A stretch of 54,352 nt of DNA, from contig JAKOTZ010000003.1 of the NCBI GenBank assembly GCA_029776995.1, positions 1 through 54,352 of the forward strand, given 5' to 3'. The notes under the pieces are model-generated. The model did not search any database. It was not told the origin of the DNA and saw only the letters and a program-made list of their open reading frames with translations. Below are positions 6,057-35,821 of the stretch, in pieces (position 1 is the stretch's first letter; each line of letters starts with the position of its first letter). This DNA is from Candidatus Hydrogenedentota bacterium (lineage in GTDB: Bacteria > Hydrogenedentota > Hydrogenedentia > Hydrogenedentales > CAITNO01). Position numbers and translations under genes: made by a program.

Positions 6057-7451
6057 ATGAAACGTTCCCGCGGCGGACTGGTCGGGCTGATCACCCTGGG
6101 CTGCGACAAAAACACCGTGGATATGGAATACATTGCCGGCGCGCTGGATAAGGTCGGCCTGCGCTGGTGCGTCCTCGACCCGGAAGTTCCCGCCCCTGAA
6201 CATGAACCGGACGCGGTGGTGATCCTGACCTGCGGCTTCGTGGGAGACGCCAAACGGCAGTCTGTGGAAGCCCTGGCCGAGTGGGCCGAGCGAAAGAAGC
6301 GGAGCGGTATTCCCAGGCTGCTGGCGGCGGCGGGATGCCTGTCCCAGCGTTATGGTGATGCCCTGGCATCCGAACTTCCCGAACTCGACCTGATCTGCGG
6401 TGTCGGCGAACCGGAAAAACTGGCCGAACAGTTAAGAGAACGGCTGGACGAAAACCTTGCTGAAACGGATACGCCTCCCGTGCGGTCCGTATCCTCCGCG
6501 CGGCCGGATATGTGCTGGAAAGGAGGGGTGCGGCCCCGCATTCCGCTCACGCGGTCTGCCACGGCTTTTTTGAAAATATCTGATGGCTGCGACCATGCCT
6601 GCGCCTTCTGTGCCATACCTTCCATGAAAGGCCCCCACCGTTCCGTGCCCAGGGAAATCCTGCTGGCGGAAGCCCGCGCGCTGTTGCGCCGGGGAGTCCG
6701 TGAACTGGTGCTCGTGGCGCAGGACACCACCGCCTACGGCCGCGATCTTTACGAGAACTACGGGCTCCCGGAACTGCTGGCGGATCTCGACAAACTGTCC
6801 GGACAGTTCTGGATCCGGGTCCTGTATGCCTATCCAACCGGTCTCAGTTCCCGGCTGGTCGACGCCATGGCTTCCCTGCGGCGTGTGGCGCCCTACCTGG
6901 ATATGCCGTTGCAGCATCTCGATCCGGATATGTTGCGCCGCATGCGCCGCCCTGTCCGGGCGGCTGATCCCGCGGTCCTGGTGGACCGGCTTCGGCGCGC
7001 CGTGCCCGGCATTGCCCTCCGCACCACGTTCATCGTCGGGCATCCCGGCGAAACCAGGCGGGCTTTTTCCAGCCTGCTCGCGGGGCTTCGCTCCCTCAGA
7101 TTCAACTGGGCCGGCGCCTTTGCCTGGTCGCCCGAGGAGGGTACGCCTTCCGCCTCGCAGCCGGGCCGGCCTGATCCGCGCACGGCCCGCAGAAGACTGG
7201 AGCGCCTCATGGAAGCGCAGGCCGAAATTACCGCGGCATGGAACGCGGAGCGGATAGGGTCGGTTGAAGAGATGCTGATTGAATCCGTCGATCCTGACGC
7301 GGATCTGGCCGTCGGAAGATCCGTAAGGGAAGCCCCGGAAGTCGACGGAACGATCTGTCTGCGGGGCGGGGGACGCCTTAAACTTGGTGACCTGGTACCC
7401 GTCCGGATCACAGGTGCGGCTGTGTATGATCTGGAGGCGGTGCCCCTGTGA
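6057..7451 (+). CDS. rimO: ribosomal protein S12 methylthiotransferase RimO
   Basis: RimO is a radical SAM enzyme that methylthiolates an aspartate of ribosomal protein S12. The 464-residue protein shows all three parts of the family: an N-terminal UPF0004 domain whose cluster cysteines are Cys16 (TLGCDKN), Cys59 and Cys94 (AAGCLSQ); the radical SAM core with CDHACAFC (Cys178, Cys182, Cys185); and a C-terminal TRAM domain from about residue 400. The text ISDGCDHACAFCAIPSMKG, with the RS..R pattern that follows, is typical of RimO rather than MiaB. GGAG lies 8 bases before the ATG. The stop TGA overlaps the GTG start of the next gene, suggesting coupled translation although the two functions look unrelated. 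Confidence 0.93.
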   Translation: MKRSRGGLVGLITLGCDKNTVDMEYIAGALDKVGLRWCVLDPEVPAPEHEPDAVVILTCGFVGDAKRQSVEALAEWAERKKRSGIPRLLAAAGCLSQRYGDALASELPELDLICGVGEPEKLAEQLRERLDENLAETDTPPVRSVSSARPDMCWKGGVRPRIPLTRSATAFLKISDGCDHACAFCAIPSMKGPHRSVPREILLAEARALLRRGVRELVLVAQDTTAYGRDLYENYGLPELLADLDKLSGQFWIRVLYAYPTGLSSRLVDAMASLRRVAPYLDMPLQHLDPDMLRRMRRPVRAADPAVLVDRLRRAVPGIALRTTFIVGHPGETRRAFSSLLAGLRSLRFNWAGAFAWSPEEGTPSASQPGRPDPRTARRRLERLMEAQAEITAAWNAERIGSVEEMLIESVDPDADLAVGRSVREAPEVDGTICLRGGGRLKLGDLVPVRITGAAVYDLEAVPL

Positions 7452-9592
7452 GCGCCTTTCCCGAAAAGGAAGAGCTTGCTGCCGATGGAGCAGCCCATGG
7501 CGCTGGTTCACCGGGTGCCCATCGGAACACGTCTTTCAGTTTGCTGATACTGGCGCTCATGCTGCTGGCCGCGGCGGCGGTGCGGCTGGCTTATCTGGAA
7601 CAGGTGCGGTCTGCTCCTGATTTTGCCGCGCCGGTCCTGGACCCTCAGCTTAACGATTACTGGGCCCGCGCGCTGGTTACGGGAGACTGGACGCCACCGG
7701 ACGGGGCGAATGATCCCATGATCCGTTCAACCCCCTACGGCCGCCCGCCGGGTTATCCCTGGTTCCTGGCCGGAATCTATCGGGTCTTCGGCCTGCACCC
7801 CCTGACGCCCAGGCTGGCTCAGATGGCGCTGGGTTTGCTCACGGTTCTGCTCGCGGGCGGCATCGGCTGGAAAATGTACGGACCCTGGGGAGCCGGCACG
7901 GCCGCGGGACTGCTGGCATTTACCTGGCCGATGCCTTTTTTTGAAGGCGAACTGAATTCGCCGGCGCTGGAGTGTTTCTGTTTTGCGGTAATGATTGCGG
8001 GGCTGCTCCAAAGCCATAATCGGTATGCCCGGGGCGGACTGGCTCTGGCCGGGCTGGCCGGCGGATGGCTGATTATCACCCGTCCCAACGCGGCGCTGCC
8101 GGTGCTGCTGGCCGCCGGCTGGGTCGCCTGGCGATTCCGCCCAAAAACGGTTCCGCAGAACCGCCCTGTCGCGGACTTCCTGTCCGGGTTTAGGCCGGCG
8201 TTTGTTTTTCTTGCGGCTGCCCTGCTGTGTGTTCTGCCGGTAGTGGTCCGCAACCGGATCGTCGGCGGCGAGTGGACGCCCGTATCCTATTACGGCGGCG
8301 TTAACCTCTATATCGGGAACCATCCGGATTCTTCCGGCGATCGCCCGCGGATACCGGACATCCAGGAAATCTCCGGATGGGAGGGCTGGAACTGTTTTGA
8401 CTATCCCCACCTTATTCAGGGGCTTGCGTCCCGCCAGGGGCTGGACGGATCTTTCGGCGCCGCTTCTCGGTGGTTTGCCCGGCGGGCGCTGTTGAACTGG
8501 CTGGAACATCCCGGCGCGATGTTCCGCCTTACGCTGCGGAAAGCCCTGCTCTTCTGGGGGCCGGCCACCGTGTCGGACAGCAAAGAAGTAGCCCTGGAGC
8601 GGCAGCGCAGCCCGATACTGTCCCTGCTGCCCGGATTCCCGCTGGTGGCCGGGCTGGGGCTGGCCGGAATGGTTCTGGTATGGATTGGCAACCGAACCCG
8701 GCTCTGTCCGGCCGCCCTGTCCCCGCCGCCCGGGGAATCCCTCCTGGCGCTGCTGGCCATGGGTCATTTCCTGTCGGTGCTTCCATTTTTCATGGCGGAA
8801 CGCTACCGGGTGGCCGCGCTGGTCCCGCTGGCCCTGCTGGCGGGCGGAGCGGTATGGCGCGCGCGTGAAGCCATCCGCTTCAGGCATCCCCGCTGTGCCG
8901 CGTGGGCGTTGGTGGCCGTTTTAGCGGGAACGGGTTTTACCCACATGCCCCTCGCCGCGTACCGGCCGGATGAGGCGCGCTGGCATTTTCACCGTGGCCT
9001 GGCCCTCATGAAAACCGGGAATCCTTTGCCTGCGGCCGTAGAGCTTCAGTGCGCTATTGCCAGGGATCCTGCCCACACCTGGTCCTGGCTGTATCTGGCG
9101 GCCGCCTATGAACAGATGGGACGGCTGGAAGACGCTTTGGCGGCCTGCGAAAGGGCGGTAAAGCTAAGTCCGGGCAGACCAGACGCCTGGAATAACCTGG
9201 GGTGGCTGTACCTGTGCCTGAACCGGCCAGGGCCGGCTGAGACAGCCCTGTCCGAGGCGGTCAGGCTGGACCCCGAATACCGTGTCGCCTGGATGAACCT
9301 CTTGCGCGCCCGGTTGGACCAGGAAAAGTATCGCGAAGCGGAAACAGCCGCCCGCCGCCTCGTTGAAATGGAACCGAATAATCCGGACGCGTGGAACAAC
9401 CTCGGATGGACCCTGATGCTGCAGCGCCGTAATGAAGAGGCTGAAGCGGCTTTTCTGAAAGCGCTTGAATTGGACCCCGGTCATCCTGCCGCCAGGGCGA
9501 ATCTGGAGAATCTTCGGACGGGAACGGCTCAGCAAAATTTGTCTTCGGAAATGCGCGCTCATCCCCTTAGTACCCCGAAATCTCAGGACTGA
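7448..9592 (+). CDS. polytopic glycosyltransferase (GT39/PMT-like) with C-terminal TPRs
   Basis: This 714-residue protein has about ten hydrophobic segments between residues 28 and 495, then a soluble tail from about 510 with four to five TPR units (for example EQMGRLEDALAACERAVKLSP and the two DAWNNLGW blocks). The N-terminal part resembles the GT39/PMT/ArnT class of lipid-phosphate-sugar glycosyltransferases: an acidic residue in the first periplasmic loop (VLDPQLNDYW) and a PYGRPPGYPWFLAG segment. The membrane-GT plus TPR design is that of TMTC-type O-mannosyltransferases. It probably transfers a sugar from a lipid carrier on the outer face of the inner membrane. The start is GTG 7448, overlapping the rimO stop, with no clear hydrophobic signal before residue 28. 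It opens the glycan block. Confidence 0.75.
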   Translation: MSAFPEKEELAADGAAHGAGSPGAHRNTSFSLLILALMLLAAAAVRLAYLEQVRSAPDFAAPVLDPQLNDYWARALVTGDWTPPDGANDPMIRSTPYGRPPGYPWFLAGIYRVFGLHPLTPRLAQMALGLLTVLLAGGIGWKMYGPWGAGTAAGLLAFTWPMPFFEGELNSPALECFCFAVMIAGLLQSHNRYARGGLALAGLAGGWLIITRPNAALPVLLAAGWVAWRFRPKTVPQNRPVADFLSGFRPAFVFLAAALLCVLPVVVRNRIVGGEWTPVSYYGGVNLYIGNHPDSSGDRPRIPDIQEISGWEGWNCFDYPHLIQGLASRQGLDGSFGAASRWFARRALLNWLEHPGAMFRLTLRKALLFWGPATVSDSKEVALERQRSPILSLLPGFPLVAGLGLAGMVLVWIGNRTRLCPAALSPPPGESLLALLAMGHFLSVLPFFMAERYRVAALVPLALLAGGAVWRAREAIRFRHPRCAAWALVAVLAGTGFTHMPLAAYRPDEARWHFHRGLALMKTGNPLPAAVELQCAIARDPAHTWSWLYLAAAYEQMGRLEDALAACERAVKLSPGRPDAWNNLGWLYLCLNRPGPAETALSEAVRLDPEYRVAWMNLLRARLDQEKYREAETAARRLVEMEPNNPDAWNNLGWTLMLQRRNEEAEAAFLKALELDPGHPAARANLENLRTGTAQQNLSSEMRAHPLSTPKSQD

Positions 9593-9667
9593 ATAGGGTA
9601 AAATGATGGGGAATGCCCGGCGCGCGTTTCGGTGCGGTTCCGCCGGCTTGCACAGGAGTAACTGAAC

Positions 9668-12550
9668 ATGCATCTTTTTTGGGAGCCCGTGGTCTGGCCG
9701 CTGTTTGACCTGTTGAAACCGCGCCGGATCCTGGAAATCGGAGCTGAAGAAGGAAAACACACCCTTAAAATCCTGCCCTGGTGCCAGCGGTTCGGCGCCG
9801 TGCTGCACGTCATTGAACCTTTTCCAAAGTTTAACGTTGAAGAATGCGCCGCGCGCTACCGCGGCCATTTCGAACTGATCCAGGGATTCAGTCCCGAAGC
9901 CCTGCCGTCGCTGCCTCCCGTGGATATCGCGCTGATCGACGGCGATCACAACTGGTATACGGTACACGCGGAACTCGAGACCCTCGCCAAACAGAATCGC
10001 CACCATAACGCCATCCCGCCGCTGTTTCTGCTTCATGATGTCGATTGGCCTTATGGTCGCCGGGACCTCTATTACGATCCGGACCGAATCCCTGCGGAAT
10101 ACCGGAAACCCTGGCGTCGCGCGGGCATCCTGCCGGGGTGTGTTGCCCTGGCGGAAAAAGGAGGATGCAACGCCAATTATTGCAACGCGGAAACCGAAGG
10201 CGGAGAACGGAACGGCGTGCGGACCGCGGCAGAGGATTTTGTTGCGGAACATGCCGATGAAGCGTGGCGTCTGATTGTGCTGCCGTTCTTTTCCGGGTTG
10301 GGCATCCTGGTCTGTGATCAGCACTTGAAAAAGGTCCCCGAACTGAACGCCTGGCTGGAATCTCTCCCGGACGAACAGCGCGCGGACCTGTGGATACGGG
10401 CGATTGAAGGCGAACGGACCCGCGTGCTGGTAGAACTCGAGAAGCGGCGGCATGATATCGCCTACCTGAAACAGAAGCGGGAGGACGCAGAAATAGCACT
10501 GGCCCGCGAGCGCGAATCATTCAGGGAACTTACAAACCGGCATGAAATCCTGAAACAGGAACGTGACCGGCTCCAGAGCGAACGTGACCGGCTCCAGGGC
10601 GAACGTGACCGGCTCCAGGGCGAACGTGACCGCCTCCAGGGCGAACTTGACCGGCTTCAGGGCGAACGTGACCGGCTCCAGGGCGAACGTGACCGGCTCC
10701 AGAGCGAACGTGACCGGCTCCAGGGCGAACGTGACCGGCTCCGCGCGGAAATCCTGAACCAGATACCGGTGCTGGTGGACGCGGCCCGCCTCATGGAGCG
10801 CCGCGAAGAGCTGTTGCGGCAGATCCGGGTTTCCATTAACCTTTTCGAACTGGCCGCGAAATCTTATGCCAAATTCCTGGCTTCCTGGCGCTGGCGGGTG
10901 GGCAACCGGCTGGCCCGTTGGGCGGCTTATTTCCGCGGAGGCAACACGGGACAGCCCACGGCTGTCATCCGCGTAAAAGATGCCATCCGGCGGCACGGCA
11001 AGTGGAAAGAAAACTACGCGGCCCGGGAAAAATCGTTGGTGCCTGCCCGCGAGGTCACCGCACTGCTGACATCCCCGGAACAGTGGTCCAAACGCGGGAA
11101 AAATCTGTCTGACCGGTTGCGCGCTGAGGTCGCCGCGCTGGAAAATGAGCTGCGCCAGGTCCTCAGCCTGTATGAACGGATGCATCTGGAGAGCCGGCGC
11201 CTGACCGCCTCCAAACGCTGGCGCCTGGGGTCACTGATTATCGGCCAGTTCCACCGCCTGCGCCTGCCGGAAGTTCCATCGCCGATTCCTCCTCTCCTGA
11301 ACGTGCACTGGGCCGCGTTCCAGGCATTGCGGAAGGGACTTCGCAACACTCCGCTTACGCCTTTGCGGATCAATAAGGATCACTTTGCCGCGGGCCGGCG
11401 GCAGCCGGATCCCCCCGCTTCATCCGCCTACAGTGTTCCCGCGCGTTCTGCTGAGCCGCGCCGGCCTGATCCGGTCGCCCGGCTGCTGCAGTTCACGCCG
11501 CCCCGCCCGCGCAACCCCTTTTACACCATCATGACCGACCAGTTGGCGCGGTGGGAGTGGCCGGTGCGTTTCACGGTCAAATGGGACGAAGCGGAGGCCT
11601 GGGCCCGCGAGCGGCACGCCCTGCCCCCGGTAGTGCACCTGCATCAGCTGGACCCGTTCTACCATGTCGCCGGCGGCGATCTGAACGCCGTCCGGGAGCG
11701 CGCCGAGTCCCTGCTGCGTCGCCTGGAGGCGCTGCGCGGCGCCGGCGCGGCGCTGGTCCACACCTTCCACAACCCCTGGCCCCACAACCGCGCCTTTCTT
11801 GAGGTGGACCGGTGGTTCACGGAACGGGCCATGCCGCTCATGGACCGGATTATTGTCTTGTGTGAAGCCGGCGTGCCCCACGTGCGGCAGTTCGCTCCCG
11901 CCGAGAAAATCGTCCACATTCCTCATCCGCACTTCATGGGTATTTACGGCCCTCCGGAGGATCGCGCTGCCTCCCGAAGAAAATTCGGCTTTGCCGACTC
12001 GGATTTTGTCTTCTGCCAGGTGGGCGAGATCAAGCCCTACAAAGGGCTGGAACGGCTCCTGGACGCGTGGGCGGTTGTCCGGCGGGAAGACCCGAATCTC
12101 CGCCTGCTGCTGTCGGGCCGCGCCCCGGATAACGCCTACTTGAAGAAAATACGGGAACGGCTGGAGGACAGCGTGGTGCTGGAGCCCCGCGAACTGGGGG
12201 ATTCCGAAATTCCCGAACGCCTGGCTGCAGCGGACGCGGCCGTCTTCTCCTTTGAGGATCAGTGGGTGTCCGGCTCGGTCATCCTGGCCCTATCGTATGG
12301 CGTCCCGGCGGTGGTGCCCGACGTCGGCGGGCTTGGAGAGTATGTGTTTGAGGAAGACAACGGTTTCCTGTACGCCCCCAACACGGCTGAAGCGCTGGCG
12401 GCCGCGATACTGCGCGCCCGCCGGTGTCCCTGGCCCGAACATCTGCGGTATATGTGTTTCGCCCATTGCGCCAAGTGGGCGCCGGATCACATTTCCGCGC
12501 GGTACGCGGAGGTATACGCCGCCGCCGCGCGAAACAGGAATATGCCATGA
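9668..12550 (+). CDS. methyltransferase / coiled-coil / GT4 glycosyltransferase fusion
   Basis: The 960-residue product joins several modules. Residues 1-130 look like a class I SAM-dependent methyltransferase (ILEIGAEEGKHT at about 20-31; ALIDGDHNWY at about 86-95). Residues about 250-365 are a coiled coil that includes nine 7-residue units of ERDRLQ(G/S) (298-360). Residues about 370-600 are basic and helical with two related 'ASWRWRVGNRL'/'ASKRWRLGSLI' segments. Residues about 650-957 form a GT-B C-terminal half with CQVGEIKPYKGLERLLDAW, a typical GT4 nucleotide-sugar site, and an acceptor-side EYVFEEDNGFLY. It probably modifies and extends a surface glycan, with the coiled coil setting distance or assembly. 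A TAAAAT box at 9599-9604 and ACAGGAG precede the gene. Its stop overlaps the next start (ATGA). Confidence 0.8.
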   Translation: MHLFWEPVVWPLFDLLKPRRILEIGAEEGKHTLKILPWCQRFGAVLHVIEPFPKFNVEECAARYRGHFELIQGFSPEALPSLPPVDIALIDGDHNWYTVHAELETLAKQNRHHNAIPPLFLLHDVDWPYGRRDLYYDPDRIPAEYRKPWRRAGILPGCVALAEKGGCNANYCNAETEGGERNGVRTAAEDFVAEHADEAWRLIVLPFFSGLGILVCDQHLKKVPELNAWLESLPDEQRADLWIRAIEGERTRVLVELEKRRHDIAYLKQKREDAEIALARERESFRELTNRHEILKQERDRLQSERDRLQGERDRLQGERDRLQGELDRLQGERDRLQGERDRLQSERDRLQGERDRLRAEILNQIPVLVDAARLMERREELLRQIRVSINLFELAAKSYAKFLASWRWRVGNRLARWAAYFRGGNTGQPTAVIRVKDAIRRHGKWKENYAAREKSLVPAREVTALLTSPEQWSKRGKNLSDRLRAEVAALENELRQVLSLYERMHLESRRLTASKRWRLGSLIIGQFHRLRLPEVPSPIPPLLNVHWAAFQALRKGLRNTPLTPLRINKDHFAAGRRQPDPPASSAYSVPARSAEPRRPDPVARLLQFTPPRPRNPFYTIMTDQLARWEWPVRFTVKWDEAEAWARERHALPPVVHLHQLDPFYHVAGGDLNAVRERAESLLRRLEALRGAGAALVHTFHNPWPHNRAFLEVDRWFTERAMPLMDRIIVLCEAGVPHVRQFAPAEKIVHIPHPHFMGIYGPPEDRAASRRKFGFADSDFVFCQVGEIKPYKGLERLLDAWAVVRREDPNLRLLLSGRAPDNAYLKKIRERLEDSVVLEPRELGDSEIPERLAAADAAVFSFEDQWVSGSVILALSYGVPAVVPDVGGLGEYVFEEDNGFLYAPNTAEALAAAILRARRCPWPEHLRYMCFAHCAKWAPDHISARYAEVYAAAARNRNMP
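10559..10747 (+). repeat. nine-unit 21-bp in-frame tandem repeat
   Basis: Nine copies of a 21-bp unit (gaacgtgaccggctccaggg plus c) begin at 10559 and recur every 21 bases. Units 2, 3, 6 and 8 are identical. Units 1 and 7 share one change (Ser for Gly), unit 4 differs at one base, unit 5 at two, and unit 9 degenerates at its end. Each unit encodes one coiled-coil heptad. Near identity at wobble positions implies recent expansion by slippage or unequal crossing over. Confidence 0.97.
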
Positions 12551-14529
12551 ACCCAGCCATTGATCTTGTAGTGCCTGTTTTTAATTCCCCGCACCACGCC
12601 CGCGCGTGCCTGCGGAGCATCTTTACGCATGCGGACGTACCCTGCCGGCTGATCGTTGTGGATGACTGCAGTGACGACCACACGGCCGGCATGCTGCGGG
12701 AACTGATGGCCGCCGCGCCGGACGCGGTGGAGGCCCGTTATCTCCGCAACGAGCAGAACCTGGGGTATCTGCGCTCGGTGAACCGCGGAATCCGTGAAGG
12801 CGGCGCTCCCGTTGTTGTGCTGGTCAATTCGGATACCCTGCTGACGCCGGGCGCGCTCAACCGCGTGTTAAGCGGATTTGGCCGCGACCCCAAAATCGGC
12901 GTGATCAATCCGGTGTCGAACTGGGCCAACTGGACACGCATACCTTTTCCAGACGGCGCGAACATTTATTCCCTGACAGATGCGGTGCGCCGGCTGGGTT
13001 CCGGGAAACTTCCGGACATCCGGAACGCTTCCGGATTTTTCTTCGCCATGCGCCGGGAGCTGATCCAGGATATCGGCGACTTCGACGAGGCCTATGGCTT
13101 CGGCTACTGGGAGGAAACCGACTTTTGCATGCGCGCCCTCGCGAAAGGATGGCGGGTCGTGGTCGACGACAGCCTGTACATCTTCCATCACGGCTGGGGG
13201 AGTTTCCAGGAAGAGGGCCGCAACGAAAACATGCGCCGCAATCGCGAAATCTTCATGGCCCGCTGGCAGAAACCATTCGCTGAAGCCGAAGCCTGGTGGA
13301 AACGGAACGATCCGGTAAAACCCCTGTCCGGCGCCCTGGAACGCGCGTTTTCCGCGGCGCCTGCGGCAGGCATGCCTAATGAATCCCGGATCCGGGACCG
13401 CATAGAGGCGCTGAGGTCGGGCGCTTCTCCCGCCCTGCGGGAGGGCGCGGCATCGGGGCGTCCCGCGGAGCGGCCGAGGGTCATCTATGTCCTTCCCGCC
13501 GTGGCGCTGTACGGAGGCATCATTTCCGTGCTCCAGGTGGTGAATGAGCTCATCCTGAACGGTTTCGACGCCAACATTGCCACTTACGGCCGGGTGGACG
13601 ACGAGATGTTCCGCATGTTCCCCATGTATTTCCGGCCCTGGCGCTTCGAATCCATGGAACAGATGGTCCGGTGTTTTCCCCAATGCGATCTGGTTGTCGC
13701 CACCGCCTGGGAAACGGTGTATCCCGTGACGGCCCTCAGGGAAATGCGTCCCGGCCTGCCCGCCGTGTACTTTGTGCAGGATTTCGAGCCGGATTTTTAC
13801 GGAGACGACCGTCCTGACCTGGCACAGCTGGCGGACCGGACCTATTACCTCATTGCCGACCAGATCGTCAAAACCCGTTGGCTGGCCCGCAAACTTAAAC
13901 CCTACGGCGGAAGAGTGCGCCGAATCCCCCTGGGGCTGAACCTCGACTTTTTCCACGATGAAGGAAAACCCAGGCCCAGGCAAATCCTCAGCCTGGCCCG
14001 GCCGACCTCCGCCAGGCGCAATTTCCCCATGGTTTGCGAGGTATACCGCAGAATCCATGCCCTGCGCCCGGATATCACCCTGGCCCTTTACGGCGGGGGC
14101 ATCGACCCGGCAACCCTCGACTTTCCCGTGCGCTATTACGGAAAGCTGGGCGAGATGCGGGAAGTCGCGCGGGCGCTGAATGAAACGCTGGTCCTGCTGG
14201 ACTGCTCGACCTTCCAGGGATTCGGGCGGCCCGGACTGGAAGCCATGGCCTGCGGCGCGGCCGCCGTGCTCACCCGTGAAGGCGGCATTACCCAGTACGC
14301 CAAACACCGGTGGAACTGTTTGCTGATTGATCCCGAAGACCCGGAGGATATCGTCAGCGCCCTGCTGGAGATAGTGGATAATGCGCCCTTGCGGGAACGC
14401 CTGGTCGCCAACGGTAAATCCACCGCGGCGGACTATGCCACATGGCTGGAAGGGCGGCGCACCGCCGCGTTGTTCCGCGAACTTCTCGGTCTGGCGCCGC
14501 CGGCTTCGGATGGCGGCAGCGGGGTATAA
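12547..14529 (+). CDS. GT2-GT4 bifunctional glycosyltransferase
   Basis: The 660-residue protein carries two transferases. Residues 1-235 are a GT-A family 2 enzyme: LVVPVFNSPHHARACLRSI at the N-terminus, VVDDCSDD, a metal-binding NSD motif (VLVNSDTLLTPG) and WEETDFCMRA as the catalytic base region, close to rhamnosyltransferase-type proteins. Residues about 315-650 are a GT-B enzyme with a GGIISVLQ glycine loop, a PLGLNLDFF hinge and QGFGRPGLEAMACG, the EX7E-type donor site of GT4 proteins. Start ATG 12547 overlaps the previous stop by four bases, so the two are translationally coupled; the in-frame ATG at 12424 lies inside the previous gene and is rejected. It probably adds two successive sugars to a surface polysaccharide. 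Nucleotide-sugar specificities cannot be read. Confidence 0.85.
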   Translation: MNPAIDLVVPVFNSPHHARACLRSIFTHADVPCRLIVVDDCSDDHTAGMLRELMAAAPDAVEARYLRNEQNLGYLRSVNRGIREGGAPVVVLVNSDTLLTPGALNRVLSGFGRDPKIGVINPVSNWANWTRIPFPDGANIYSLTDAVRRLGSGKLPDIRNASGFFFAMRRELIQDIGDFDEAYGFGYWEETDFCMRALAKGWRVVVDDSLYIFHHGWGSFQEEGRNENMRRNREIFMARWQKPFAEAEAWWKRNDPVKPLSGALERAFSAAPAAGMPNESRIRDRIEALRSGASPALREGAASGRPAERPRVIYVLPAVALYGGIISVLQVVNELILNGFDANIATYGRVDDEMFRMFPMYFRPWRFESMEQMVRCFPQCDLVVATAWETVYPVTALREMRPGLPAVYFVQDFEPDFYGDDRPDLAQLADRTYYLIADQIVKTRWLARKLKPYGGRVRRIPLGLNLDFFHDEGKPRPRQILSLARPTSARRNFPMVCEVYRRIHALRPDITLALYGGGIDPATLDFPVRYYGKLGEMREVARALNETLVLLDCSTFQGFGRPGLEAMACGAAAVLTREGGITQYAKHRWNCLLIDPEDPEDIVSALLEIVDNAPLRERLVANGKSTAADYATWLEGRRTAALFRELLGLAPPASDGGSGV

Positions 14530-14530
14530 T
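14525..14530 (+). promoter_or_regulatory. TATAAT -10 box containing a stop codon
   Basis: A perfect TATAAT contains the TAA stop (14527-14529) of the GT2-GT4 gene. No good -35 box was found at 16-18 bases. It would feed the micropeptide and first SGNH gene. Confidence 0.4.
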
Positions 14531-14702
14531 GTCTTACGAACTCGACACGGGAGAACCTGTTATGAGTCCGATTCCACCCAGACGCCTGCCGGCGCGCGCG
14601 CAGAGCCTCACCATCATCCTCGACACGATCCTGCAGATCCTGAGCATTATCGAGGCCGTTTACCGGCTGTTCACGCTGATTTTCTCCTCCCAGGCGCGGT
14701 GA
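14529..14702 (+). CDS. single-span membrane micropeptide in the glycan block
   Basis: A 57-codon frame starts at ATG 14529, sharing one base with the stop of the GT2-GT4 gene. A second in-frame ATG at 14562, preceded by GGGAG, would give a 46-residue product. The C-terminal half is one hydrophobic helix (about residues 28-53 of the long form, rich in Ile, Leu and Phe) after a basic Pro/Arg stretch, which predicts a cytoplasmic N-terminus. A TATAAT box covers 14525-14530, which favours the inner start if transcription begins there. Its TGA overlaps the GTG of the next gene. Coupling on both sides argues it is real. No known family is recognised; it could be a small subunit of a glycan-export or SGNH complex. 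Confidence 0.55.
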   Translation: MSYELDTGEPVMSPIPPRRLPARAQSLTIILDTILQILSIIEAVYRLFTLIFSSQAR

Positions 14703-16228
14703 GCAGGTTCGCTGGAGCGCGGCGTGCCCGATGGATTGCCCTCGCGCTGACGGGCGGGCTGTGGCTGGTCCTGCTGGCCGTCGGCCTGGAAACCTGGGCG
14801 CGGTGGCAGGCCCGGCAGGAGGAACGCCTGGCGCGGGAGATAGAAAACCGCCTGTATGCGGAGTCGGAGTGGACCGCCCGGGACCAGGCCGTCGCCCGGG
14901 AGGTGCTCGGAGCGTGGCCCGATACGGACGCCGACCTGCGCGCCTGGCGCGATTTGCTGAACCTGCCCCCCGCGGACAGCCGGTGGAAAAAACGGGCGGA
15001 TACTTTTGGCGAGGCTTTTCTGTTTCTGGATGCTGCCGGACGGGTGGCGGACCGTATCCTGCCGGATCCCGCCGGGTCCTCCTTGCCTGCCGGGTGGCTG
15101 GAGCGTTTTACTCCCGGAGTGGTGATTACCGATATCCTTCCCGCCGACTGGGCTGATGACGCTGCCGCCGCGTCGCGGTCTGCCGCCGCGGGACATCAGA
15201 TTCGTGAGTATCCTGTCCCCATTCAGGAGAACAGTCCGCCGGAAGTGCTCCAGTTTGTCTGGATGCCTGCCCCGCCCGAAGTCGCGTTTTCGATCCTGTG
15301 CGTCATCCGCCCATCTATTTGGAAGGAACTCTGGATCGCTTTTCGCCCGAATGTTCACCATCAGGACATCATGGATTTCCAGTCAAACAGCCTGGGCTGG
15401 CGGGATGGCGAAGTGCTGCTGCCAAGGCCGCCGGATGTTTTCCGCGTGGTCTGTGTCGGCGGATCCACCACCGCCGAGGGACCGCACAATGCCCTGACCT
15501 ATCCGAATCTCCTGGAACGGCGCCTCCGCGGCGCGTTCCCAAAAATAGACGTGGTCAACGCCGGAATCTTTGCGATCCTCAGTTTCGGCGAAGCGAGGCG
15601 CGCACCGGATTACCTGGCCCTGGATCCTTCGCTCATCCTCCATTACAACTTCGTCAATGACGTGCCTTATGTGCTGGACCGCGCGGAATCTGCGGAGTCT
15701 TTTCTCTCGCCCCGCCGGCTGCTCCGTCGGCTGGCCCGGCATTCCATTTGGGTACGGCGGAACCTTGACCTTTGGGTTCTTCCCGCTGAAACGGATCTGA
15801 TAACAGGGCTTCAGGACACATTCGCCAACATGGACGTGTTGCGGCGCGAAGCCGGCCGGCGCGGGGTTCCGGTCGTGTTTTGTTCCTTTGCCAGGCCGGG
15901 CTGGGAGAACCTGCCGGATTCCGAAAAAGCCTTTTTCAACCGTCGGATCCTCAACATGATTTGGGGGCCGCGCCTGACCATGCGCGCCTACTGCAGGCTC
16001 GTCGACCTTTATAACCGTGAACTGCGCCGGCGCTGTGTAGAATGGGACGCGCCGTTTCTCGATATTGCGCCACTGCTGGCCGGAGGCGCCGAACGCTTTA
16101 CCGATATCTGCCACATGCGCGTGTGGGCCATGGAGGACAAAGCCCGGGTGATTGCCGACCGCCTCGCGCCGATCATTGCGGGAAGCGCGAACGGCGCGCC
16201 CGGTCCTCAGCCGGCGTCTCTGTTATAA
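14699..16228 (+). CDS. membrane-anchored SGNH/GDSL hydrolase, copy 1
   Basis: From GTG 14699 (overlapping the TGA of the micropeptide) the protein has 509 residues. Residues about 12-30 are a hydrophobic anchor after an Arg-rich start, so the catalytic part faces the periplasm. A helical region (40-150) precedes the SGNH domain: block I VVCVGGSTT with nucleophile Ser256, then DVVNAGI, HYNFVND in place of the GxND block, and DICH with Asp469 and His472 completing the triad. Such enzymes are esterases, often adding or removing O-acetyl groups on polysaccharides. The next gene is a paralog of nearly the same length. Its position beside glycosyltransferases suggests work on a surface glycan. Longer in-frame starts lie inside the preceding genes and are rejected. 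Confidence 0.82.
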   Translation: MSRFAGARRARWIALALTGGLWLVLLAVGLETWARWQARQEERLAREIENRLYAESEWTARDQAVAREVLGAWPDTDADLRAWRDLLNLPPADSRWKKRADTFGEAFLFLDAAGRVADRILPDPAGSSLPAGWLERFTPGVVITDILPADWADDAAAASRSAAAGHQIREYPVPIQENSPPEVLQFVWMPAPPEVAFSILCVIRPSIWKELWIAFRPNVHHQDIMDFQSNSLGWRDGEVLLPRPPDVFRVVCVGGSTTAEGPHNALTYPNLLERRLRGAFPKIDVVNAGIFAILSFGEARRAPDYLALDPSLILHYNFVNDVPYVLDRAESAESFLSPRRLLRRLARHSIWVRRNLDLWVLPAETDLITGLQDTFANMDVLRREAGRRGVPVVFCSFARPGWENLPDSEKAFFNRRILNMIWGPRLTMRAYCRLVDLYNRELRRRCVEWDAPFLDIAPLLAGGAERFTDICHMRVWAMEDKARVIADRLAPIIAGSANGAPGPQPASLL

Positions 16229-16229
16229 T
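16224..16229 (+). promoter_or_regulatory. TATAAT -10 box containing the stop of SGNH copy 1
   Basis: A perfect TATAAT spans the TAA stop (16226-16228) of the upstream gene and lies 17 bases before ATG 16247. Transcription from it would give a leader of only about 10 bases. Confidence 0.4.
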
Positions 16230-16246
16230 CCCGCGGGAAACACTTC

Positions 16247-17773
16247 ATGAAGCGCGTCCTGCTGAAAACAACCCTTGTCCTGTCGCTTTGGCTGGTGTGT
16301 CTGGCCTTCGCTTTGGAGGCATGGGTCCGGTTTACCGAGTGGAAACTCGACCGGCGCGTGCCCGAGGTGGAGGTTTATTATGGCTACAACGCCCCGAAAT
16401 GCGCCCGAAACGCCGAGATCCTCCGGGAAGTGCTGGGAACGGATCAGGTGGTGTTCAACCGGGACCAGCTGGCCTGGCAGGAGCTCCTGAAATCTCCCGA
16501 CCTGGAGCCGTGGCAGCGGCGTGCTGATGAACACGGTGAAGTATTTCTGTTTCTCGACCGGGACTGGAAAATTCACACCCGGGTGGTCCCGCGTAATGTG
16601 TCGGATGAATTGGCGGTGTATGCCGCCCGGCTTGAACCCGGCCGCAGGCTGGAGACGGTTCTTCCCCAGGGTACCGTTCAGGATGCTGCCCAGTGTCTTG
16701 AGATCGTCAGCGATTCTTTCTGGCAGTTCCGGGAGTATCCCGTGCCCTTGCCCCGCCCGTACCGGGTAACGGTGTTTCAGTTCGGTTTTCTGCGGATGGA
16801 TGCGCCTCCCGCGGCGCCCGATCTGAGGAACGGCTACCTGGTGGTCGTCCGCCTGTCCATCTGGCTGGATTTTCTTTTTGCCCTCCGGCCGGGCGTGAAA
16901 CGCGCCTCGGGATCCATCGAGGAGATCAGCAGCCAGGGATGGCGTTCTGACGAAGTGGCGGTGCCGAAACCTCCCGGCGTGTTCCGGATCATCTGCGTAG
17001 GAGGGTCTACCACCTACGAAGGCGACCATAATGCCCTGACCTGGCCGGCCCTTCTGCAGCGGCGGTTGCGCGCCGAAACCGGCCGGCCTATCGAGGTGGT
17101 CAACGCCGGCATCCTGGCGCTCGACAGTTTCGGCGAATCTCAGCATGCCGAAGACTATCTCGCCGTGGAACCGGACCTCGTCCTCCATTACAACTTTGTC
17201 AACGACATGGAGCGGATCGTTTCCGCCCTCAATTCGGATGGGACTTCGTCGGGCCTGGTGAAGGCCGCGCTTCGCCGAATGGCCGGCATATCCGTGCTGT
17301 TGCGCCGCAGGCTCGACGCATATCTGTTGTGGGACAAATCCCAGGTGGACCGCGCGCTGGACCTTACCTTCAGCAACTACGACTTCCTCCGGAACGCCGT
17401 TCACCGCGCTGGCGCGCGCATGGCCTTTTGCACCTTTGCCCGGCCGGATCCCGATATATCCCCCGCCGAACGGGCGCTCATCGAACAGCGGCTCCGGGCG
17501 CAGTACTGGGGGCAGAACCTCACCCTGCTGCAGTACTGCTGGATTGTCGACTGTTATAACGACCGCCTGCGCCGCTATTGCGCTGAACATCAGCTGCCCC
17601 TGCTGGATATTGCCCCCTACCTCACCGGCGGCGCGGACCGCTACATTGACTACTGCCACATGCGTCCGTGGTCCATCGAAGAAAAGGCCCGGCTGGTGGC
17701 CGAGCGGATTCTTCCCCTCCTGGGCGAAACGCAACCGCCGGCGGATGCCTCAGCCGCCGCGCGGACACCCTGA
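16247..17773 (+). CDS. membrane-anchored SGNH/GDSL hydrolase, copy 2
   Basis: This 508-residue paralog of the preceding gene has the same plan: an N-terminal anchor (about residues 6-24), a helical region of about 200 residues, and an SGNH domain with IICVGGSTT (Ser254), EVVNAGILALDSFGE, HYNFVND and DYCHMRPW (Asp468, His471). Spacing between nucleophile and Asp (213-214 residues) is the same in both copies, showing descent from one tandem duplication. Copy 2 differs mostly in the N-terminal helical region, which may recognise a different acceptor. Its neighbour on the right, trpS, is convergent, so this gene ends the glycan block. Esterase or acetyltransferase roles are both possible. Confidence 0.82.
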   Translation: MKRVLLKTTLVLSLWLVCLAFALEAWVRFTEWKLDRRVPEVEVYYGYNAPKCARNAEILREVLGTDQVVFNRDQLAWQELLKSPDLEPWQRRADEHGEVFLFLDRDWKIHTRVVPRNVSDELAVYAARLEPGRRLETVLPQGTVQDAAQCLEIVSDSFWQFREYPVPLPRPYRVTVFQFGFLRMDAPPAAPDLRNGYLVVVRLSIWLDFLFALRPGVKRASGSIEEISSQGWRSDEVAVPKPPGVFRIICVGGSTTYEGDHNALTWPALLQRRLRAETGRPIEVVNAGILALDSFGESQHAEDYLAVEPDLVLHYNFVNDMERIVSALNSDGTSSGLVKAALRRMAGISVLLRRRLDAYLLWDKSQVDRALDLTFSNYDFLRNAVHRAGARMAFCTFARPDPDISPAERALIEQRLRAQYWGQNLTLLQYCWIVDCYNDRLRRYCAEHQLPLLDIAPYLTGGADRYIDYCHMRPWSIEEKARLVAERILPLLGETQPPADASAAARTP

Positions 17774-17788: not shown

Positions 17789-18850
17789 CTAGGCCCGGAA
17801 CAGCGACCGGCCGATGCCCATCGCCGCCCGGCAGGATTCCACGGTTTCCAGCGCGACCGGCGTGACCCGACGCGCGTTGGTCCGCAGGAAATCTTCCACG
17901 TATTCCTGCGTGTTCCACGGCGCGTTGAAATTTTCAATGATCGGCGCGTTGAACCGGTTGACTTCCTCGATTACCCGCTGTTTCAGTTTGCCGTAGAATT
18001 TGCCGCCCTGCCGGTACGCGTCCAGGAACTCCAGATACGCCTCCGGCGCGAGCAGGGACAGCAGGCGGTAGAGCACGCCCACGCCGGGCGGCATCCGGGG
18101 GATCACGGCGTCCGGCTCGTTGCTTTCCGTGTCGAGCGGCATGGGTTCCGTGGTCGTGGGAACGGCCCGGATTTTCCGCTGCACCGTGTCGGGGTCGTCC
18201 AGCAGGTCCAGCGTGTTGTTGTCGCTTTTGCCCATCTTGGCGCTGCCGTCCAGCCCGGGCAGCCGCAGCGCGTCTCTGCCCACCGGCCGCGGCACTTTCA
18301 GGGTTTCGCCGAAACGGCTGTTGAACCGCTGGGCGATATCCATCGCCATTTCCACGTGCTGGCGCTGGTCATCGCCCACGGGAACCGTGTCCGCCCGGAC
18401 GATCAGAATGTCCGCCGCCATCAGGACCGGATAGCCCAGCAGGCCGTAGGAAAGCGGATTTCCTTCCGCCTTTGGATCTTCCTGAAGCTTGCTCAGCTTG
18501 TCCTTGTAGGTTGTGCCCCGCTCGAGGAAACCGATATTCGTGATCATCCCGAGCAGGAGGGCCAGTTCCGCCGTGCATGGCAGGTCGCTCTGGCGGTAGA
18601 TCACGGATTTTTCCGGATCCAGGCCGCAGGCCGCGTAAGTCCGGAGCATCGCTATCGTATTCGCGTAGATGTCCGTCGGCTCCGTGATCGTGGTCAGGGC
18701 GTGGTAATCCGCCACAAAGTAGTAACAGGTCGCCGTATCCTGTTCCTGAAGCCGAAGAAAATGCCGGATTGCTCCGAAATAGTTGCCGTAATGGAGCCGG
18801 CCCGTGGGGCGGATGCCGGATAGAATAATTTCACGCTGTGTCGTATTCAT
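17789..18850 (-). CDS. trpS: tryptophan--tRNA ligase
   Basis: TrpS charges tRNA-Trp with tryptophan. The 353-residue protein has a normal length for the bacterial enzyme. It shows the class I signatures: SGIRPTGRLHYGNYFGAI near the N-terminus, where HxGN is the HIGH motif, and AKMGKSDNNT, the KMSKS motif with Gly for Ser at the third place, a common variant in TrpS. The tryptophan-site segment GDDQRQHVEMA is present. AAGGAA lies a few bases before ATG 18850. A perfect 7-bp palindrome lies 23-37 bases upstream of the start. The gene is convergent with the second SGNH gene, with only 15 bases between stops and no clear terminator. Confidence 0.95.
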   Translation of the reverse strand: MNTTQREIILSGIRPTGRLHYGNYFGAIRHFLRLQEQDTATCYYFVADYHALTTITEPTDIYANTIAMLRTYAACGLDPEKSVIYRQSDLPCTAELALLLGMITNIGFLERGTTYKDKLSKLQEDPKAEGNPLSYGLLGYPVLMAADILIVRADTVPVGDDQRQHVEMAMDIAQRFNSRFGETLKVPRPVGRDALRLPGLDGSAKMGKSDNNTLDLLDDPDTVQRKIRAVPTTTEPMPLDTESNEPDAVIPRMPPGVGVLYRLLSLLAPEAYLEFLDAYRQGGKFYGKLKQRVIEEVNRFNAPIIENFNAPWNTQEYVEDFLRTNARRVTPVALETVESCRAAMGIGRSLFRA

Positions 18851-31184: not shown

Positions 31185-34100
31185 ATGTCCCGATATGCGC
31201 TGTTCCGATTCTTCCGTCTGTCCGGCCTGCTGATGCTGGCAGGCATGTGGATGGCCGGGCAGCCTTCCGGCGCCGCCCCGATCGCATCTCCCGATGCCTG
31301 GCGGCTGGTCGTCAATGACGACGGCACCAACCTGTTCTGGCGCGAGGACCTGACGCCGGAAGCCGTGTTCTGGCAGGCCCAGTCCATTCCGCACGGCGTT
31401 ACCACCGTTATGGTCTGCCCTAACGGCATCCAGAAAATGCTGTATCCCAGCCAGGCGGAAGCCGTGTCGGAACGGGGCAAGTTGGGCCGTTATATCGCCG
31501 AAGGCCGGGACCTGTTCGGCGAATACATCGAGGCGCTGCGCCGCCGCGGCTTTGAAGTGTTCATCACGTTCCGGATGAACGAAGTCCACAACGTGAACGA
31601 CCCCAATGAGCCGGATCTGTGCGACCTGTGGCGCAACCATCCGGAATGGCGGGTGCAACCGGACGCGCCGCTGACCGACTGGATGGCCCACTGCCTGGAT
31701 TACTCGCGGACCGAGGTGCAGGAACGCGCGCTGAAGCTCATTTTCGAGCTGCTGGACCGCTACCAGCCTGACGGCATCGAGCTGGACTGGATGCGTTTCC
31801 CGAGGCATCTGCCGGGCGATGAAAAACAGGTCTGGCGCAACAAGGGCATGCTCTCCGATGTCGTGGCGGCGGTCCGCCTGCGAACCCGCGAGCTGGAGTC
31901 CGCCTGGGGGCGCCCTGTCCGGGTGGCGGTCCGGGTGCCCACGTCAGCGGAAGGCTGCCGAAAACTGGGCGTTGACCTGGCTGACTGGACCCGGCGCGAT
32001 TTGGTGGATTTTGTCACAGCGTCTCCATTCCTGGCCTCAGACTTCGGCATGCCCCTGCGGGAACTCAGGGAGCTTATGGGAGACCGCCCCGTGCCCCTGT
32101 ATGGCGGCATTGAGTTCGGATATGCCGGGAAAGACCACACGGAGGCATCCCTGCGGGGCGCGGCCATAGGCATACTGGAGAGCGGGGCGGACGGCCTGTA
32201 CCTGTTCAACTTCCCGTGCTGGCGGGAGCAGGTTCCGTCGCCTCCCTGGTCCCGGGTGGCCATGCTGGAACGTCCCGACGGACTGGTCCGCGGGGAGGTC
32301 ATCCTGGCGCTGGTTAATGGCACCCATCGGGTTCCGGTGGATCTGCCGGTCCAGCTGCCCTGTCGGATTGATCCGGGCGCCGCGGCCACGCTCAAGTGGA
32401 ACGTGCCGGCGTCTCTGGCATCCGGCGGGTGGGAGTCCGCGCCCCTGCTGATGCTGACCCCGCCATCGGAGAATGTGGAAATCCTCTGGAACGGCCAGCC
32501 GTGCGCTCCGGACGGCGCCCTGCCGGAAAACGCGCTCCGTCCCGGGGAGAACGAACTGGTTCTGCGCAACCGCGGCGCGGCATCCGTTGAAATTACCCTT
32601 GCCGAGCTGACCTTCCACTTCCCGCGCTGGCCTAAGTACGCCCCGGAGGCGGACCAGGAAAACGCGCTGACTGTTGCCGTGGATCCGCCCGGACCCGACC
32701 TCGGACACAGCGCCATGCAACAAGCCTGCAACCAGTTGAAATCCCGGCTCGGGCAGTTCCCCGGGCGGCCGGTGTGCCTGGCGTTTCCACCGGGCCGGTA
32801 TGCCCTGAATCCATCTGTGCTCGCGGAGCTGGCTGGACTTCCGCACGGCGGCTGTACGTTTCGGGCCGCGGAGCCGGGCGCCACGATCCTTGACGGGGGC
32901 GTGCCCCTGATCACATGGAATGAGCGGGAGAACGGCCTCTGGGAGAGCGGCCCGGTGGCCGGACTCCGCGGCGATGAAGTCCTGTACGTGAACGGCGAAC
33001 CGATGCGCCTGGCCGGGATGCCTTTCCCCGAGTCATGGTCGCTTTGGGGAGACCTGGAACACATAGACGGGCGCTGCGGGTATCGGATCTCCGGGCCGCA
33101 ACTGCCCCCAATTGCCCGGCCTGACCGCCTGCTGGTGGACGGCACGAAGGAATGGGCGCACATGGTATGTCCGGTGCTAGCGCTGCACGCGGACGGCCGG
33201 GGCAACTGGCTGATCGAAATGCGGCAGCCCTGGTTCTTTCTGGCGCGCCGAAAGGAAGGCGTACAGCTGGAAAAGCCGTGGCGACTGCTGAACGCGCCGG
33301 AGCTGGTGGACGAACCCGGAGAGTTCTGTTATGACGCGGACCGCGGCGTGTACCTGCTGATGTCCCCGGCGGGCGTCCGCCCTGCGGATCCGGGTACGGA
33401 CATCCGCGTGTCCGGTCCGGGATTGCGTCTCCAGGGCGTCAGCCGGCTGCGTTTTGAAGGGCTGGTTTTTGAGCACATCCGCTCTGACCGGTCCCTCCAT
33501 GACGCCCACATCGACGTGCAGGCCAATTTCAGGGCCAGGCGGGACAACCTGTTTGAGCGGGACGGCACGCTGACTTCGCTGCACAATGAGTATGAACGGC
33601 TGGACGGCGGTTTCGTGCTGGACGGATGCCGCGACGTGTCCTTTTACCGGTGCGTTTTCCGGAATTTTGACGGCACCGCGCTGGACATCACCGGGGGCAG
33701 CCGGCGGGTTGTTGTCGATTCGTGCCTGTTCGAAAAGATCGGCGGAACCGGCATCCAGATCGGCGGCGTGTCTGAGGCGGACCACCATCCTGCCGCGCCC
33801 GGCGGAAACACCGGCGAGGTGGCGGTGGTCCGGTCGGACATCCGGAACTGCGGGCAGTTCTACCTGGGCAGCGTGGGCATATTTGCCGGATACGTGGACC
33901 GCGTGACCATTGCGGACTGTACCATTACGGATCTGCCGTACAGCGCCATTTCCATGGGGTGGGGATGGGGGGAAGAGGATGCCGGCGGCGGCAGCTACCT
34001 GACCCCCTATCTATATGCCGCCCCCACTCCGGCCGGGGCCAACCGGATCGAAGGCAACCGGATCAGCCGCGTGATGACCCGGCTGAATGACGGCGGAGCC

Positions 34101-34328
34101 ATCTATACCCTGGGTAGCATGCCCGGAACCGTTATTCAGCGCAACCGAATCGAGGCCACCGGTCCCGGCTGGCCCGGGGGGATTTATCTCGACGAAGGCA
34201 GCGCCTGTATTGAGGTCGTGGACAACGTGCTGCGGGAGATACCCAAACCCTTCCACGTCAACAACCGCAAACAGGACCGTTACCGGACCTGCCTGTTTAT
34301 GGGGAATGATCCGTCGCCGGAATTATAA
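31185..34328 (+). CDS. secreted glycosidase-like TIM barrel fused to a right-handed beta-helix
   Basis: The 1047-residue precursor has a signal peptide (about 1-30). Residues about 35-360 resemble the GHL10/DUF187-type (beta/alpha)8 hydrolases: VVNDDGTNLFWREDLTPEAVFWQ, then DGIELDWMRFPRH, with Glu199 and Asp201 as candidate catalytic acids at a strand end, and GIEFGYAGKDHTEASLRGAA. A small beta domain follows (about 380-490). From about 560 to 1040 the protein has short repeated strands typical of a right-handed beta-helix (for example RLDGGFVLDGCRDVSFYRCVFRNFDGTALDI), which commonly binds or cleaves acidic polysaccharides. The combination fits an enzyme acting on complex glycans. GGGAG precedes the start. 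Exact family and substrate cannot be assigned. Confidence 0.72.
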   Translation: MSRYALFRFFRLSGLLMLAGMWMAGQPSGAAPIASPDAWRLVVNDDGTNLFWREDLTPEAVFWQAQSIPHGVTTVMVCPNGIQKMLYPSQAEAVSERGKLGRYIAEGRDLFGEYIEALRRRGFEVFITFRMNEVHNVNDPNEPDLCDLWRNHPEWRVQPDAPLTDWMAHCLDYSRTEVQERALKLIFELLDRYQPDGIELDWMRFPRHLPGDEKQVWRNKGMLSDVVAAVRLRTRELESAWGRPVRVAVRVPTSAEGCRKLGVDLADWTRRDLVDFVTASPFLASDFGMPLRELRELMGDRPVPLYGGIEFGYAGKDHTEASLRGAAIGILESGADGLYLFNFPCWREQVPSPPWSRVAMLERPDGLVRGEVILALVNGTHRVPVDLPVQLPCRIDPGAAATLKWNVPASLASGGWESAPLLMLTPPSENVEILWNGQPCAPDGALPENALRPGENELVLRNRGAASVEITLAELTFHFPRWPKYAPEADQENALTVAVDPPGPDLGHSAMQQACNQLKSRLGQFPGRPVCLAFPPGRYALNPSVLAELAGLPHGGCTFRAAEPGATILDGGVPLITWNERENGLWESGPVAGLRGDEVLYVNGEPMRLAGMPFPESWSLWGDLEHIDGRCGYRISGPQLPPIARPDRLLVDGTKEWAHMVCPVLALHADGRGNWLIEMRQPWFFLARRKEGVQLEKPWRLLNAPELVDEPGEFCYDADRGVYLLMSPAGVRPADPGTDIRVSGPGLRLQGVSRLRFEGLVFEHIRSDRSLHDAHIDVQANFRARRDNLFERDGTLTSLHNEYERLDGGFVLDGCRDVSFYRCVFRNFDGTALDITGGSRRVVVDSCLFEKIGGTGIQIGGVSEADHHPAAPGGNTGEVAVVRSDIRNCGQFYLGSVGIFAGYVDRVTIADCTITDLPYSAISMGWGWGEEDAGGGSYLTPYLYAAPTPAGANRIEGNRISRVMTRLNDGGAIYTLGSMPGTVIQRNRIEATGPGWPGGIYLDEGSACIEVVDNVLREIPKPFHVNNRKQDRYRTCLFMGNDPSPEL

Positions 34329-34367
34329 GAAGGCGTATTTCCGCGGGATCGATCGAATTACACAGGA

Positions 34368-35687: not shown

Positions 35688-35692
35688 AAGCA

Positions 35693-35761
35693 ACCGGTAA
35701 TTTTTTTTACCAGTTTACCATAAAACCGGTAAGAAATATGACCGGTTTTATTTCGGCCGGT
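35693..35761. promoter_or_regulatory. palindromic operator-like region before the DUF4143 ATPase gene
   Basis: TAAAACCGGT (35721-35730) and ACCGGTTTTA (35741-35750) are exact inverted copies with a 10-base spacer. Two further ACCGGT-like copies flank them (35693 and, imperfectly, 35755). This lies just upstream of the ATPase start on the minus strand and fits a site for dimeric repressor binding. Confidence 0.5.
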
Positions 35762-35821
35762 CAAACGCCACTTTGGACGGCTTCACTTTTTCAGGGCAGG
35801 GAGGTAAAATTCCCGCCCCAA

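Follow-up and report, generated by a model that had tools for sequence, protein, structure and literature searches.

Six genes at positions 7448 to 17773 of the window, the whole 54,352-nt stretch of Hydrogenedentota DNA analysed here, probably form a genuine, co-expressed glycan locus of one genus. On balance, and with slightly better than even confidence, we interpret this string as a genus-specific locus for a methyl-capped glycan that depends on an ABC exporter from which it is split, with periplasmic tailoring by GT-C and SGNH enzymes. In the genome (3.4 Mb, 97% complete), the window makes up contig C140. A preliminary description proposed the stepwise assembly of a glycan that is methylated and edited at O-acyl groups, with a coil taking part, and this is still the best reading of the string. 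The core of the machinery, which that description had counted as part of a candidate undescribed system, is of a known kind, since terminator/polymerases joining a methyltransferase (MT), a coil and a glycosyltransferase (GT) have been described (PMC11231755, PMC2943079) and their homologues are widespread across phyla. The novel aspects are the separation from the exporter and the link to GT-C/TPR and SGNH enzymes.

The string is bounded by RimO (6057-7451) and, on the opposite strand, TrpRS (17789-18850). A role in the string was rejected for both of these housekeeping genes, upstream and downstream, which share only synteny with it. Every open reading frame of the preliminary description was confirmed in place, with a largest gap of 75 nt and overlaps of 4 nt, and the sole real corrections concern start codons. 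Pfam supports each of the assigned domains (TPR, Methyltransf_24, Glycos_transf_1, Glycos_transf_2 and, slightly under their cut-offs, PMT_2 and Lipase_GDSL_2). All six genes lie on the plus strand. The first, P0001 (7448-9592), encodes a PMT_2/GT39-like GT-C protein with C-terminal TPRs; it begins with a GTG and overlaps the end of RimO by 4 nt. After the 75 nt that form the widest gap follows the gene for a 960-aa MT-coil-GT4 protein (9668-12550; Pfam and homologues), comprising a Methyltransf_24 domain (9668-10402), a coil whose ERDRLQG heptads are encoded by 8.8 copies of a 21-bp tandem repeat (10559-10742), and a Glycos_transf_1 GT4 domain (11963-12430; 7.7e-21). The dual GT2-GT4 glycosyltransferase P0003 (12547-14529) starts at an ATG at 12547, with a 4-nt overlap; an earlier GTG at 12424 appears in the ORF list. 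A 46-aa hydrophobic micropeptide (14562-14702) is then followed by SGNH1 (14699-16228), a hydrolase with an N-terminal membrane anchor and an alpha/beta domain, the GTG start of which overlaps the micropeptide stop by 4 nt; its in-frame upstream extension to 14381 has non-coding codon usage. The last gene, SGNH2 (16247-17773), is 43% identical to SGNH1 and its tandem duplicate. Within the string there are no genes for an exporter, an initiating transferase or sugar nucleotides. Elsewhere in the window, positions 34001-36000 have a GC content of 52%, compared with about 62% around them, and this stretch, which holds an AAA_14/DUF4143 ATPase gene (34368-35693, minus strand), was possibly acquired horizontally.

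The ATG of the micropeptide at 14562, with a Shine-Dalgarno-like GGAG 8 nt upstream, is probably a likelier start than 14529, which would give a 1-nt overlap with the GT2-GT4 gene. Its 46 codons score 0.60 bits per codon, against a real-gene mean of 0.55, and exceed all 1260 off-frame control windows; because the codon statistics match those of real genes and surpass these controls, the micropeptide is probably translated. No homologue of it was found, the contigs of the same-genus genome G001 ending inside the string. Assignment to a DUF5989-type family was rejected for want of a Pfam match.

By analogy with known proteins, the MT-coil-GT4 protein is presumed to act as chain terminator, ruler and glycosyltransferase. 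The MT motifs E-x-G-x3-G and DGDHNWY are kept across 59 homologous MT domains, and the GT4 domain is WaaG-like by phmmer; a PDB sequence search with the protein returned matches confined to the GT4 part, plus one to the coil. The putative coiled coil is a charged helical segment (residues about 235-398) that is weak by the heptad rule, with one hydrophobic position per heptad and a glycine in most repeats, and the underlying DNA repeat has 94% matches. The homologue at L047:7893-10658 (minus strand) has wholly unlike repeats at this place, KHEREMEAEERRRE as opposed to ERDRLQG, which suggests independent expansion. When 84,980 species genomes were scanned, the MT domain turned up in many phyla, often ahead of a coil and GT domains in chains 800-2,200 aa long. 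Among named records, the one closest to the gene belongs to a Candidatus Hydrogenedentota assembly (JAGPFE010000043.1). In the order, only 5 of 68 genomes have MT relatives, with a close form in three (G000, G001 and G015, the G015 homologue being full-length and 42-44% identical), and the putative methyl-capped glycan of the string is therefore not a core feature of the order.

A functional pairing of the MT-coil-GT4 protein with the GT2-GT4 protein is well supported by sequence comparison. In G015 a GT2-GT4 homologue (65% identical) adjoins the MT-coil-GT4 homologue, and the full length of the GT2-GT4 protein aligns inside the single-chain MT-coil-GT2-GT4 proteins of loci L102 (30% over about 660 aa, 1e-79) and L106 (2e-76), after the MT-coil. 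Because distant homologues thus fuse the MT-coil to GT2-GT4, the two proteins very probably cooperate as polymerase and methyl terminator. The GT4 half of the dual enzyme also has a weak match to WsaF_N (24.6 bits for P0003 and 26.5 for its G015 homologue, with a cut-off of 27).

Wzx, Wzy, Wzz and ABC genes are missing from the string itself, as had been reported. A classical Wzx/Wzy cluster was accordingly rejected, the three Wzy_C proteins of the genome being encoded elsewhere and unlinked. The further claim that the cluster is not of the ABC type does not follow, because the same genome has two Wzm/Wzt-like pairs outside the string, on contigs C245 and C46. Among 31 MT-coil-GT loci seen in 10 kb or more of context, such a pair is close by in 17, mostly within three genes and often at positions -2/-1, and the neighbours of these loci are chiefly glycosyltransferases, ABC_tran and ABC2_membrane proteins. 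These findings are consistent with the view of coiled-coil terminators as markers of ABC-dependent glycans, Klebsiella O7 ORF6 being of that plan (PMC11231755). The C245 pair (L236:3-2132 and L236:2057-2944, minus strand) includes a Wzt with a C-terminal extension of about 440 residues that has no Pfam match; this extension recurs in 58 of 68 genomes from the order, nearly always in a single copy, and no Wzt_C domain was found in the genome studied here. GT-C genes of the P0001 family lie 2.6-5.5 kb from the long-Wzt exporter in G018, G025 and G031. We infer that a Wzm/Wzt pair exports the glycan of the string in trans.

P0001 scores 25.1 bits against PMT_2, just below the cut-off of 26.1; paralogues score above it, and many relatives carry 5-8 members of the family. 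The C-terminal part holds about five TPRs (TPR_1, 99.8 bits). An AlphaFold model of the protein has a pLDDT of 89, and helices counted in this model, together with the positive-inside rule, predict 11 membrane spans and periplasmic TPRs. A fold search with the full model gave TPR matches only, among the matches listed, so the assignment of a GT-C fold derives from sequence profiles. Three tandem GT-C/TPR genes on contig C119 of the same genome (L182:3713-10393, minus strand) are distant paralogues (26-27% identical).

SGNH1 and SGNH2 share one layout, in which a short N-terminus with positive charge leads into a single membrane helix, followed by an alpha/beta domain and the SGNH domain. The catalytic residues S254, G288, N319, D468 and H471 (S, G, N, D-x-x-H) occur in at least 58 of the 59 family members, and Lipase_GDSL_2, slightly below cut-off in both proteins, is above it in the neighbouring SGNH-like proteins of locus L063. 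The model of SGNH2 (pLDDT 92) has CgnD and acetyl xylan and sialate O-acetyl esterases as its closest folds among the matches listed; AlgX is not among the 50 listed fold matches, and the model has no C-terminal CBM. Judged by strand order, the alpha/beta domain may be PAS/Cache-like, without a confirming fold match. In SGNH2, C250 and C470 flank the active site and are conserved in 57 and 55 of the 59 members, respectively, a possible disulphide or redox feature. SGNH2 is sister to SGNH1 plus its G001 orthologue in the tree (100/100), and by this sequence evidence the pair is a genus-level duplication. In G001 the SGNH1 orthologue (71%) stands directly beside TrpRS, with no SGNH2 between.

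The association of GT-C with SGNH genes recurs in relatives. Of 58 distinct full-length SGNH genes drawn from related genomes, 28 are flanked within 100 bp (or next to a tandem SGNH gene) by a co-directional gene for a polytopic protein of 500 aa or more; among background genes of comparable size the figure is 19 of 191. This background includes loci picked for GT-C and so works against the difference, and because the genomes are related, the p-value of the comparison does not amount to a probability. One of the 28 neighbours, at L054, is in fact a transporter fusion. By a count made by eye from coordinates, a GT-C orthologue group (query L063, 3787-5556) is present in 18 genomes and has an adjoining SGNH match in 16, the remaining two showing one weak SGNH match and one contig end. 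A GT2 plus GtrA gene, resembling polyprenyl-phosphate sugar synthases, lies within three genes in four SGNH loci, and such an enzyme would supply the GT-C donor. The genome studied here has the conserved pair of GT-C/TPR and anchored SGNH genes on contig C223 (L063:1643-5556), and at some loci a gene of the GT2-GtrA kind adjoins the pair. In loci L219, L223 and L225 (family f7), a GT-C gene is followed by an independent tandem pair of SGNH genes; two shorter SGNH-like genes lie next to these in divergent orientation, along with a GT-C/TPR gene of 1330 aa, which makes for a richer form of the association. A search of the literature for modules that combine GT39/TPR with SGNH returned nothing relevant. 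We tentatively propose, as a possibility that falls short of a probable explanation, that Hydrogenedentota have an undescribed periplasmic tailoring module, consisting of a GT-C with docking TPRs and one or two anchored SGNH enzymes and present at several loci per genome, which in this genus is joined to a methyl-capped, ruler-controlled polymerase, with an exporter of Wzm and an unusually long Wzt in trans.

The six genes had been proposed to form one linked system, and this stands within the genus. The entire string is backed by two genomes of the same genus; in the second, G001, contigs end inside the string and the middle is missing, and the flanking gene order matches on both sides of this assembly gap, with a P0001 orthologue at the equivalent place (66% identical) and an MT-coil-GT4 counterpart that is 85% identical at its N-terminus. 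The wider claim failed: neighbours that vary between relatives had been named as evidence against a system, and outside the genus the genes do separate. The closest P0001 and SGNH orthologues in other genera occupy unrelated neighbourhoods, those of P0001 not beside SGNH genes and those of the SGNH proteins (G005, G007 and G015) not beside GT-C genes. Beyond the genus, the MT-coil-GT4 and GT2-GT4 genes stay together in one genome, G015. Across relatives it is sub-modules that are conserved, and not the six genes as one system.

This pattern bears on an alternative in which MT-coil-GT4 and GT2-GT4 constitute a polymerase/terminator unit, and the GT-C gene and the SGNH pair come from other pathways and became neighbours in the genus recently and by chance. 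The dispersal of the closest P0001 and SGNH1/2 orthologues outside the genus, and the retention in G015 of just the polymerase pair, agree with it. However, same-genus synteny on both sides and the 4-nt overlaps speak for a joint locus, and elsewhere the GT-C family is linked both with the SGNH family and with Wzm/Wzt. We regard chance neighbours as an unlikely explanation, albeit one that retains appreciable weight.

In the preferred model of a methyl-capped glycan locus split from its ABC exporter, the GT4 domain of the MT-coil-GT4 protein and the GT2-GT4 protein would extend a polyprenol-linked chain in the cytoplasm. The N-terminal methyltransferase would cap this chain, and the coil, by comparison with WbdD, O7 and WsaE, would space the cap from the polymerase and so set chain length. 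After export by a Wzm/Wzt pair whose genes lie outside the string, the GT-C, fed by a polyprenyl-phosphate sugar, may add a side sugar or transfer a sugar at the outer face of the inner membrane. Its periplasmic TPRs may act as a dock, by analogy for the SGNH enzymes, and the two anchored hydrolases would remove or move O-acyl groups. Several observations weigh against this model: the string lacks exporter, initiating transferase and sugar-nucleotide genes, Wzt_C is absent from the genome, the nearest P0001 and SGNH orthologues of other genera are found in unrelated surroundings, the heptad pattern of the coil is weak, and the complete string has the backing of only two genomes, one of them without its middle.

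Protein O-glycosylation is a further alternative, in which a TMTC-like GT-C/TPR enzyme glycosylates exported proteins, the cytoplasmic glycosyltransferases and methyltransferase make or extend a glycan, and the SGNH enzymes edit it, as in S-layer glycosylation. The plan of GT-C plus TPRs predicted to be periplasmic equals that of TMTC (PMC7801869), and the plan of WsaE/WsaF in S-layer glycans, with the weak WsaF_N match, points the same way. Against this, P0001 has a single invariant D65 in its first luminal loop and no TMTC DD motif, nor a Pfam match to DUF1736; by analogy it may work like a TMTC without being a member of that family. There is also no oligosaccharyltransferase or S-layer gene nearby, and no acceptor protein was identified; we consider this explanation improbable. 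That MT-coil-GT proteins act on a small molecule or lipid and resemble capped O-antigens only superficially is highly implausible, for although the same MT family also exists as stand-alone proteins of 220-280 aa, the large forms are linked to Wzm/Wzt in GT-rich neighbourhoods.

The locus would extend the coiled-coil terminator strategy, worked out for enterobacterial O-antigens and a Gram-positive S-layer, to a deep uncultured phylum in which the genes are dispersed. The recurrent GT-C/TPR and SGNH pair may serve in the tailoring of glycans or glycoproteins, a role open to direct testing. TMTC1-4, O-mannosyltransferases of the GT-C/PMT clan for which uncharacterised full-length prokaryotic homologues have been mentioned (PMC7801869), resemble P0001 in joining a GT-C membrane part to TPRs, which are luminal in TMTCs and predicted to be periplasmic in P0001, and differ from it in the DD motif and DUF1736. 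In alginate export, the TPR protein AlgK docks the SGNH acetyltransferase AlgX on the glycan in transit (PMC9734138); both systems would combine an SGNH enzyme with periplasmic TPRs, as a likeness of plan and not a sequence relationship, whereas here the TPRs are fused to the GT-C and the SGNH enzyme has a membrane anchor and an N-terminal alpha/beta domain and lacks a CBM. The slg cluster of Geobacillus stearothermophilus (PMC2943079, PMC3898925) likewise shows tight gene overlaps, a methyltransferase joined to a glycosyltransferase (WsaE) and a partner GT4 with a WsaF_N-like region, matched weakly here; unlike the string, it combines an MT and two GTs in WsaE, holds Wzm/Wzt, an initiating transferase and a ligase, and has no SGNH pair. 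Klebsiella pneumoniae O7 ORF6, WbdD (O3/O9a) and WbbB (O12) (PMC11231755) differ from the present system in that here no kinase domain was seen, a GT4 replaces two GT2 modules, and Wzm/Wzt lies outside the locus, but they share with it a single chain with an N-terminal terminator and a C-terminal GT, joined here by a putative coil, with further polymerase modules in a neighbouring gene.
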